Below are positions 46,979 through 49,516 of a stretch of DNA of 64,000 nt, in pieces. The notes beneath the pieces were generated by a model that was not told the origin of the DNA, did not search any database, and was given only the letters and a program-made list of their open reading frames with translations. Made by a program: the position numbers and the translations under genes. The DNA is from Aequorivita aurantiaca (GTDB taxonomy: Bacteria; Bacteroidota; Bacteroidia; Flavobacteriales; Flavobacteriaceae): assembly GCF_030410135.1 (NCBI RefSeq), contig NZ_JAUGQQ010000008.1, forward strand, positions 1-64,000, given 5' to 3'. The stretch's first letter is position 1. Every line of letters starts with the position of its first letter.

Positions 46979-49516
46979 TTATGAAATATAATTCCAAATA
47001 TTCCGATATTTCACAAGTTGAGCGTAGGTATTTTTAATAGGAATATTTTCTTCCGAAGAAAGGTTTGGGTCAGTTTTTAACGTTTGCGAAGCATAGCTTC
47101 GGGCAATCTTTAATATTTCGGAATCCTTCACTATATCTGCAATTCGAAGGTTTAAAACGCCGCTTTGTTGCGTTCCCATCAAATCGCCGGGACCGCGCAG
47201 TTTTAGATCTACTTCAGCAATTTCAAATCCGTCGCTGGTTCTAACCATGGTTTCCAAACGGATTTTTGCATCCGCGGAAAGTTTGTGGCTAGTCATTAAT
47301 ATGCAATAACTCTGATCCGCACCTCGGCCAACTCTTCCGCGCAATTGGTGCAGTTGTGAAAGCCCGAAACGTTCCGCACTTTCAATAATCATCACGCTGG
47401 CGTTTGGCACATTTACGCCAACTTCAATAACCGTTGTGGCTACCATAATTTGTGTTTCTCCTTTAATGAAGCGGTTCATCTCATATTCTTTATCGGCAGA
47501 TTTCATTTGCCCGTGAACTATGGAAACTTGGTAATTCGGTTGCGGAAATTCACGCACAATACTCTCGTATCCATCCATCAAATCCTTATAATCCATCTTC
47601 TCACTTTCCTGTATCAAAGGGTACACAATATACACCTGCCGACCCTTCGAAATTTCGTCCTTAATAAAGCGAAAAACTTTCAGCCTATTTGCATCAAATC
47701 GATGCACGGTTTTGATGTCTTTTCTGCCTGGCGGAAGCTCGTCAATTACGCTAATATCGAGGTCGCCATAAATGCTCATGGCCAGGGTGCGGGGGATGGG
47801 GGTGGCGGTCATAATTAGCACGTGTGGGGGAATAGCCCCTCCAACCTCCCCCAAGGGGAGGCTTTTTAAAGTTGTCTCAATTGTTTTTATTGAAGTATCA
47901 ATGTTGCCTATTATTTCTTCGTTGGTGAAACGTAGTATTTTAAACCCGAGTTCTATTAAAATCTGTGTCCTTAACTCATCAACCTCTTTTTGTTGCGGAT
48001 GGTTGTGATAGCCACCATCTACTTCAACCACAAGCTTCTTTTCGAGACAGACAAAATCTACGATAAATTCATCAATTATATGTTGTCTTCTAAATTTAAA
48101 ATCAAGCTTTTTAGTCCTTAAACATTCCCATAAAATGGCTTCGGCTTGGGTGGGTTGTTTTTTGTTTTTTTGCTGAAGCTCTTTCAGTAATTTATAAGTA
48201 GACGGTCTAGCCGTCATATATTTTTTGCGCACTTCGGCTTCCTCCCTTTGGGAGGATTGAGGTGGGCTACCTTTATGCCAAAGTTTACTTCTTTGCTCCA
48301 CTCCAAAACGGTGCTGTTCGTCCACAATTGCAAGCCCTAAATTTTTAAATTTTACCTTATCCTCGAGCAGCGCGTGAGTACCAATTAGGATGTTTAATTC
48401 ACCATTTTCCAATTTTTCATGGATTTCTTTTCTTTTTGAAGTTTTGGTTGAGCCCGTTAGTATTTCAATACTGGTGTTCAGTTTGTTACACATTTCAACC
48501 AAACCGTTATAATGCTGTACTGACAAAATTTCAGTTGGCGCCATTAAACAGGCTTGAAAACCGTTGTCAAGTGCTATTAACATTGACATTAGCGCCACAA
48601 TGGTTTTCCCAGAACCCACATCGCCTTGCAAAAGCCGATTCATTTGTGCGTTACTTCCCAAATCGTTGCGGATTTCTTTCAGTACACGCTTCTGTGCTTC
48701 GGTCAATTCAAAGGGTAAATGTTCCGAAAAAAAGGTGTTGAAATTATGCCCTATTTTGTCAAAAGTATAGCCCTTAATTTTTGATTTATGGAGGAGGTTT
48801 TTCCGAATTAATTGCAGTTGAATGTAGAACAATTCCTCAAATTTTAATCGGTATTGCGCCCGTGCTAAATGCGTCTGACTTTTGGGAAAATGTATGTTGA
48901 AAAGTGCCTCCGTTTTTGAGGCCAATTTTAGCTGATCCAAAAGTGGTTTTGAGAGGGTTTCGGAGAAGGCATTTTTGGTCTCCAAAAACAACTGTTGCAT
49001 CAGTGAATTTATCACCCGATTTGTGATGCCGCTATTCGCTAATTTTTCAGTGGAAGGATATACGGGTTGCATTGCCGAACGAATACTTTTTTCGTGGGCA
49101 TCGAGCAATTCCATTTCGGGGTGTGGCATAGAAAAACTGCCATTGAAAAAATTCGTTCTTCCGAAAATCACATACGGCACATTCAACTTCAAATTCTCGC
49201 GAATCCATTTTTGTCCGCGGAACCAAACCAATTCCATCGTGCCCGTTTCGTCAATGAAAGTGGCGACCAACCGTTTTCCTTTTTTCTGCTCAACCGTTTT
49301 AATATGGGTAATTTTCCCAATAATCTGAACTTCAGCATTAGTCTGCTGAAGTTGGCCAATTTTGTAGTATTGCGTTCTATCGAGATAACGATTCGGAAAG
49401 AGATTCAGCAAATCCTGAAACGTGTGGATGCCCAGCTCTTTTTTCAGCAAATCCGCACGGTTTGGGCCGACGCCTTTTAGATAATCTATGGGAGTTTGCA
49501 GGAAATTTGCGTTCAT
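46979..49516 (-). CDS. recG: ATP-dependent DNA helicase RecG carrying an in-frame DUF559 insertion
   Basis: RecG remodels stalled forks and Holliday junctions. The 845-residue protein is about 145 longer than usual. The host part is complete: N-terminal wedge/OB domain (about 1-250), Walker A LLQGDVGSGKTIVALMS (about 295-311), motif II DEQHRFG (399-405), motif III TATPIPR (570-576), motif VI QLRGRVGRG and the C-terminal DLKLRGPGDLMGTQQSG. Residues 417-561 are an insertion with a DUF559 nuclease domain; without them the flanks join as KLWHKG-IPPHVLIMTATP, which reads as ordinary RecG. Whether the helicase still works is unknown; the surface loop between motifs II and III may tolerate it. Convergent with the M16 pair and divergent from the M1 peptidase. 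Confidence 0.93.
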   Translation of the reverse strand: MNANFLQTPIDYLKGVGPNRADLLKKELGIHTFQDLLNLFPNRYLDRTQYYKIGQLQQTNAEVQIIGKITHIKTVEQKKGKRLVATFIDETGTMELVWFRGQKWIRENLKLNVPYVIFGRTNFFNGSFSMPHPEMELLDAHEKSIRSAMQPVYPSTEKLANSGITNRVINSLMQQLFLETKNAFSETLSKPLLDQLKLASKTEALFNIHFPKSQTHLARAQYRLKFEELFYIQLQLIRKNLLHKSKIKGYTFDKIGHNFNTFFSEHLPFELTEAQKRVLKEIRNDLGSNAQMNRLLQGDVGSGKTIVALMSMLIALDNGFQACLMAPTEILSVQHYNGLVEMCNKLNTSIEILTGSTKTSKRKEIHEKLENGELNILIGTHALLEDKVKFKNLGLAIVDEQHRFGVEQRSKLWHKGSPPQSSQREEAEVRKKYMTARPSTYKLLKELQQKNKKQPTQAEAILWECLRTKKLDFKFRRQHIIDEFIVDFVCLEKKLVVEVDGGYHNHPQQKEVDELRTQILIELGFKILRFTNEEIIGNIDTSIKTIETTLKSLPLGEVGGAIPPHVLIMTATPIPRTLAMSIYGDLDISVIDELPPGRKDIKTVHRFDANRLKVFRFIKDEISKGRQVYIVYPLIQESEKMDYKDLMDGYESIVREFPQPNYQVSIVHGQMKSADKEYEMNRFIKGETQIMVATTVIEVGVNVPNASVMIIESAERFGLSQLHQLRGRVGRGADQSYCILMTSHKLSADAKIRLETMVRTSDGFEIAEVDLKLRGPGDLMGTQQSGVLNLRIADIVKDSEILKIARSYASQTLKTDPNLSSEENIPIKNTYAQLVKYRNIWNYIS
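47833..47861. repeat. Terminal inverted repeat, left end of the recG element
   Basis: Begins TAGCCCCTCC and ends in the hairpin CTCCCCCAAGGGGAG. About 20 of 29 positions match the reverse complement of the right end without gaps. It is translated as LPLGEVGGA in RecG. Confidence 0.75.
48241..48269. repeat. Terminal inverted repeat, right end of the recG element
   Basis: Hairpin CCTCCC TTT GGGAGG followed outward by ATTGAGGTGGGCTA. Translated as SPPQSSQREEA in RecG. It is the mirror of the left end and of the same design as the solo repeat at 1686-1722. Confidence 0.75.

Follow-up and report, generated by a model that had tools for sequence, protein, structure and literature searches.

In the marine bacterium Aequorivita aurantiaca, the gene of the DNA-repair helicase RecG was found to contain, in frame, a DUF559 nuclease coding unit that has no stop of its own and lies between two inverted REP-like ends, leaving host and nuclease readable as one protein. 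With a probability of about 0.6, we regard this cassette as a selfish element of homing-like character, flanked by REP-like ends, that resides within proteins and is never removed by splicing. The window analysed is the whole 64,000-nucleotide stretch at positions 1 to 64,000 of contig NZ_JAUGQQ010000008.1, and the features that matter here are as follows.

46979 to 49516, minus strand: recG, the cassette-bearing host gene, 845 codons (open reading frame, Pfam and NCBIfam).
47835 to 48267, minus strand: cassette, from GCCC to GGGC, in frame in recG, 433 bp (sequence and comparison of empty with filled relatives).
47867 to 48178, minus strand: DUF559 (PD-(D/E)xK, EDxHD/Vsr-like) nuclease domain, RecG residues 447-550 (Pfam PF04480, E 1e-30).
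47835 to 47861, no strand given: cassette 3' end relative to recG, made up of the hairpin at 47845-47861 and the outer run GCCCCTCC.
48240 to 48267, no strand given: cassette 5' end relative to recG, made up of the hairpin at 48240-48256 and the outer run GAGGTGGGC.

The exact termini, 47835 and 48267, were inferred from the outer GGGC common to both ends. A single open frame of 845 amino acids covers the whole of the filled recG, and both Pfam and NCBIfam recognise two RecG parts with DUF559 in between; the insert scored 106.3 bits against PF04480, for which the curated cut-off is 20.6, and thus belongs to DUF559. As the original prediction had stated, the insert lies between helicase motif II (DEQH, 399-402) and motif III (TAT, 570-572), a placement borne out by the open reading frame, Pfam and alignment, and the active-site residues D487, E498 and D500, which it had called intact, are present along with E459, H504 and D513 (RecG numbering). 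In 23 aligned RecG sequences (16 filled, this one included, and 7 empty), the helicase motifs, including DEQH and TAT, are all found without variation, and the host enzyme therefore looks intact. The predicted figure of 145 extra residues needs adjusting: the insert is indeed in frame, but the net gain over the 701-residue RecG of the empty sister species is 144, with three residues (NEY or NDY) replaced. The TA duplication that had been assumed can be read in A. aurantiaca alone, where TA stands on both flanks of the cassette; the remaining filled recG genes of Aequorivita do not show it.

The unit had been described as lacking a transposase; consistent with this, no transposase domain was detected in the cassette by Pfam and no Y1 transposase match was found in the A. 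aurantiaca genome. Pfam likewise gave no Hint-type splicing domain in RecG or the cassette at E ≤ 0.01, and there was no Rfam match at E ≤ 1 within 47300-48800, and on these grounds an intein or intron was rejected. The cassette's setting differs in this respect from that of the usual EDxHD homing endonuclease, which resides in a self-splicing intron or intein. When a 151-residue piece was modelled with AlphaFold2 (mean pLDDT 80.0), the nuclease core was confident and the ends (residues 1-19 and 144-151) were not; because confidence is low there, the translated ends are read as predicted disordered segments that would act as linkers. The AlphaFold2 model of the entire RecG was not interpretable (pLDDT 64.6, pTM 0.39). 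Early in the core there is a YMT motif whose Met is replaced by Leu or Glu in other copies. A start within the cassette is thus not a conserved feature, and production of the nuclease probably depends on translation of the host protein as a whole.

The search for RecG covered 28 Aequorivita genomes, and the insertion site was readable in 27 of them (G017 gave no recG locus): 6 were filled, 16 were empty (KNEY or KNDY) and 5 had a short insert. At L024, L025, L029 and L041 the edges of the cassette are kept and the middle is gone, in frame, marking them as deletion remnants; the short insert of L042 is doubtful as a remnant. Filled and empty species are interspersed in the recG tree. A. aurantiaca itself (L018) pairs with the empty L031 (support 94/89) and L022 with the empty L034 (99/93), whereas A. 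todarodis (L066) and L020 pair with the remnants L025 (100/97) and L024 (82/84), respectively. That the cassette in recG is an insertion is supported because 16 of the 27 readable congeners are empty and because filled and empty forms occur in sister species. A single fixed domain passed on by vertical descent without loss was ruled out by the empty sisters and the remnants. The Aequorivita inserts in recG form one clade, and a long residence of the cassette in the genus is likely. Across the family, a RecG match was obtained in 58 of 60 sampled genomes and ran unbroken across the site in 56; it was split in the remaining 2, A. aurantiaca and G033. Of 30 family recG loci fetched, 28 were readable, and these showed the short loop KNxxPPH (26) or a somewhat longer one (2). 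A filled recG from a metagenome bin labelled Limnohabitans (L074) groups with Flavobacterium and probably comes from a misbinned contig.

Going beyond the original prediction, similar cassettes were found in many other host proteins. Within Aequorivita, an in-frame DUF559 occurs in leuS in 8 of 28 genomes and in metH in at least 2. In the family, 111 of 299 genomes have a relative (E ≤ 1e-10), and in at least 31 of the 299 it sits in an open frame of at least 800 amino acids, at least 9 of these being recG. In the phylum, the figures are 160 of 395 genomes (E ≤ 1e-15) and at least 45 of 395 with a relative in a frame of at least 300 amino acids, not every such frame being identified. One early set of loci consisted of the best 80 of 577, chosen in seeking embedded copies, and the embedded share in it is no prevalence. 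By NCBIfam or by sequence, the hosts include the synthetases LeuRS (two sites), IleRS (two sites), ValRS and MetRS and, besides RecG, UvrA, RecJ and a RecB-like helicase. Further hosts are MetH (three sites), HutU, MazG, a LegC-type aminotransferase, a WbcJ-like reductase, WecB, an ABC-F protein, IcmF and a PglX-like methyltransferase; matches for the LegC-type, WbcJ, RecB-like, PglX-like and IcmF hosts and for a cut-off ValRS fall below the NCBIfam curated cut-off. Terminal fusions were also seen, with DUF559 at the C end of HisD and at the N end of a HemD-like protein. The second LeuRS and IleRS sites and the HemD host are presumptive, being taken from our own reading of the sequences.

Several observations on fused and repeat-bearing frames were made alongside. 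One metH frame (L159) carries two DUF559 copies at two sites. The N-end DUF559 that shares a frame with what we take to be a HemD-like protein (L300-L307 and L309) is found in eight or nine Flavobacteriaceae genomes, and the translated linkers of these fusions look palindrome-like. At L294 and L295, an N-end Y1 (TnpAREP-like) domain is in one frame with an apparent coproporphyrinogen oxidase, presumably HemF; comparable long Y1 frames are among the matches listed for G005 and G008. In congeners without the cassette (L184-L205), short repeats of a different nature, belonging to at least three types, are translated within the CP1 loop of leuS, so the loop looks like a hotspot for several repeat families.

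The two ends of the cassette are inverted, imperfect copies of one REP-like module. Read outward, a pyrimidine arm leads through a loop into a purine arm, and a few bases further on comes a second G-rich run, which ends in GGGC. As 37-nt single-stranded DNA, the ends fold better than shuffled sequences (z -2.1 and -2.9). The inverted, translated hairpin ends of the original prediction were located at 47845-47861 and 48240-48256, and ends of this kind do occur at other copies. Of the two outcomes that were to refute the original prediction, neither was seen, as relatives with an empty site exist as well. In a survey of 158 distinct copies (175 matches less 15 duplicates and 2 short ones), a strong hairpin, defined as a perfect hairpin with a score of at least 17 in the 150-nt window beside the copy, was present on at least one side of 100 of 137 embedded copies (frames of at least 300 amino acids) and 18 of 21 others, and on both sides of 65 of 137 and 8 of 21, respectively. 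Control windows from the same loci contained such a hairpin in 6.8% of cases (n 5129), so that chance alone would place one on one side or the other of about 13% of copies; 37 of the 137 embedded copies fell short of the threshold on both sides. The arm recurred beyond the hairpin, forming the outer G run, at 62 of 92 right and 63 of 89 left ends compared with 59 of 760 control hairpins, counts in which duplicate copies are still included.

Codon usage also sets the ends apart. Between genera, identical amino acids are encoded by the same codon at a rate of 0.71 in the left and 0.735 in the right end of recG cassettes, compared with 0.525 in the DUF559 core and 0.480 in recG, and the conservation of the right end was matched by 0 of 168 host windows of 8 codons; within genera, the contrast was weaker (0.77, 0.90, 0.74 and 0.68). 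Because same-codon use is higher in the ends than in core or host, the DNA of the ends seems to be held beyond what the protein needs. Across 24 recG copies, pairing in the right hairpin exceeded that in 1000 of 1000 shuffles, but double changes were equalled in 219 of 1000, and covariation is therefore not leaned on.

Repeats of related appearance were noted elsewhere in the genome and beyond. A lone intergenic repeat of similar build, with a CCCTCCC hairpin and loop followed by a second G run, lies at 1686-1726 of the window, and its hairpin occurs nine times at about 13-15 kb of contig C3 of the same genome, mostly with a spacing of about 131 bp, beside a stand-alone DUF559 gene. At L063, a tandem pair of near-identical DUF559 units has repeats around it.

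The active-site residues E, D, E, D, G, H and D are invariant in all 124 cores compared (107 embedded and 17 solo; L103 and L166 were left out for want of an anchor, and L310 was not included). The leuS copy L310 has lost active-site residues while its frame is still intact, so decay does occur. Sequence searches of the PDB gave two relatives, a Neisseria DUF559 protein and the catalytic domain of the homing endonuclease I-Bth0305I (3r3p), which were also the top fold matches in Foldseek. For I-Bth0305I, the profile E value was 3e-7 and the Foldseek E value 5e-4, the single-sequence match being weak (E 0.024); Vsr of Escherichia coli was a weaker structural match, at rank 14. A phage origin was considered and rejected; viral contigs gave 19 pattern matches, of which 4 were confirmed as relatives.

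A tree of the 124 cores showed 21 changes of host-site label compared with 72.2 after shuffling, indicating grouping by site over organism. The tree came from a quick search with 10 of 121 inner branches well supported, and trees were built without L021 (taken as the same genome as L066) and several duplicates. The recG copies make up one group (25 rows, support 89), and the site grouping is clear for recG and metH (2 changes), mostly so for leuS (5 changes) and weak for ileS (8 changes for 15 rows) and valS (4 for 6). The recG motif II-III loop, metH and most of leuS thus have largely their own nuclease lineage, common to distant genera and patchy among close ones, and the recG, leuS and metH copies of Aequorivita sit apart, each beside same-site copies from other genera. 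Such a pattern is that of homing or of old insertion, as judged from these sequences, and not of frequent transposition within a genome. The original prediction of a mobile element is upheld as regards insertion, given the 16 empty sites among 27, but not as regards frequent transposition, because copies tend to keep to their host site across genera.

Pairs whose inserts are more alike than their hosts were looked for as a sign of recent transfer from one genus to another, and no clear case emerged: the largest excess, 0.947 over 0.921, was found within Aequorivita, and for pairs from different genera the excess did not go beyond about 0.02. Fill state was linked to flanking sequence mainly in the first 60 bp toward motif III (net 0.036, 0 of 200 permutations) and also in one window 300-360 bp away on the opposite side (net 0.010, 0 of 200); on the right, windows further out than about 180 bp were set aside because an indel had put them out of register. 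By these values the co-conversion signal at the recG flanks is slight, which counts against the homing reading.

Homing by cutting of the empty allele is the reading that we prefer, with domestication as its main rival. The nuclease, expressed as a domain of the host protein, would cut or nick the empty allele or, alternatively, the folded hairpins at the cassette's own ends, and recombination repair would then copy the cassette and its ends into the gap. New sites would arise rarely. In-frame residence in a conserved gene would ensure that the cassette is expressed and that every relative offers it a target, and with the ends serving as flexible linkers the host would pay little. We are more tentative, at slightly worse than even odds, about the wider claim that this is a new class of selfish element, namely a spliceless, in-protein homing cassette copied into loops of essential proteins and persisting as a tolerated domain, with ends that are at once DNA signals and flexible linkers.

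Under domestication, an old insertion would have been kept for the benefit of the host protein or cell, in repair, defence or regulation, and the patchiness would reflect retention. Among the six filled Aequorivita recG genes, the DUF559 core is under purifying selection (dN/dS 0.074, compared with 0.044 in recG) and has diverged about in step with its host (dS 0.64 for the insert and 0.77 for recG), and the inserts form a single clade there, as noted above. In the 24 recG copies, insert and host agree at the level of genera, sharing 7 of 21 splits (0.2 by shuffling) with an identity correlation of 0.79, although the tree of either one is rejected by the data of the other (AU 2.3e-5 and 1.2e-5). 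Insert and host have thus mostly diverged together, which keeps domestication in contention; we nevertheless consider it unlikely, at somewhat better than one chance in five, in view of the empty sisters and in-frame remnants, the occurrence of a similar domain in enzymes as unrelated as LeuRS, MetH and HutU, and ends that are conserved as DNA.

Less likely again, at around one chance in eight, is that the cassette is a REP-type element moved in trans by another enzyme, for example a Y1 (RAYT) transposase, with DUF559 as a passenger. The ends are REP-like, in-frame REPs in repair and synthetase genes are known (PMC3733652), and when 40 DUF559-positive family genomes were compared with 40 DUF559-negative ones, Y1 genes were commoner in the former (26 of 40 and 11 of 40). 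However, Y1 is absent not only from A. aurantiaca but from 9 of 28 genus genomes (the other 19 having matches), among them the filled G000 and G010, and the 14 of 40 DUF559-positive genomes without Y1 have the same median palindrome excess, 3.0. Strong hairpins stand beside only 9 of 26 Y1 loci, those displayed being mostly of other sequence, and the active site of DUF559 is conserved. In the same comparison, the excess of palindromes over a reversed control averaged 5.6 with DUF559 and 1.8 without (p 0.006); the idea that DUF559 is the sole source of palindromes was dropped, this association being weak (p 0.04 without Y1) and confounded with Y1 genes. It is also conceivable, though improbable, that palindromic repeats enter tolerant loops alone and that recombination has repeatedly caught a nuclease gene between two of them. 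The other short repeat families in the same leuS loop of congeners without the cassette and the lone repeat at 1686-1726 would fit this, but the outer module shared by the two inverted ends, site-specific lineages common to distant genera and an invariant active site speak against it. A chance fusion of DUF559 with recG or an assembly artefact, with accidental inverted repeats, can practically be dismissed, as the same site is filled in six congeners and in further genera from independent genomes, and the hairpin and codon-conservation tests point the same way.

Set beside known systems, the cassette resembles the EDxHD homing endonucleases such as I-Bth0305I, which are found in introns and inteins: its catalytic domain is related, it is patchy at fixed sites in conserved genes, and its lineages are site-specific and common to distant hosts, a likeness to homing that is drawn from sequence. 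Unlike them, it has no intron or intein, stays in the protein and possesses REP-like ends. PMC3943268 and PMC9403480 describe the EDxHD family, the latter filing a DUF559 gene under it. With REPtrons and REPINs (RAYT/TnpAREP Y1), the cassette shares the arrangement of a nuclease gene between two inverted hairpin repeats, but it has DUF559 rather than a Y1 HuH nuclease, differs in terminal sequence and lies in frame within genes. The term REPtron and the in-frame REPs of repair and tRNA synthetase genes are given in PMC3733652, and TnpAREP classes in PMC6006769. Like the Rickettsia palindromic elements and in-frame REPs, the cassette adds palindromic sequence to conserved genes and is translated with them, the hosts including genes for repair and tRNA-related functions (PMC3733652); unlike those short repeats, it has a nuclease domain between two palindromes. 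Neisseria NGO0050 and Caulobacter VsrA, the latter with a DUF559 domain according to PMC12907096, belong to the same domain family but are separate genes. The original prediction knew of no prior description, and among the titles and abstract openings listed by searches of open-licence PMC full texts, none describes a DUF559 that lies between palindromes or is embedded in frame in a host gene; because most subscription papers lie outside that search, the novelty of the element is provisional.

If our preferred reading of the cassette as a homing element is correct, parasites of conserved genes would need no splicing, a tolerant loop and linker-coding ends being enough, and introns and inteins would be joined by a further way of inhabiting a conserved gene that leaves the gene alive. 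For DUF559, a large family whose role is unclear, this would mean a part in mobile elements, and the REP-like repeats of Bacteroidota would gain a nuclease partner other than RAYT. The finding would also account for domains that tRNA synthetases, MetH and repair enzymes carry in excess and that are otherwise taken as host features, and it would point out sites in loops that tolerate the insertion of a domain.
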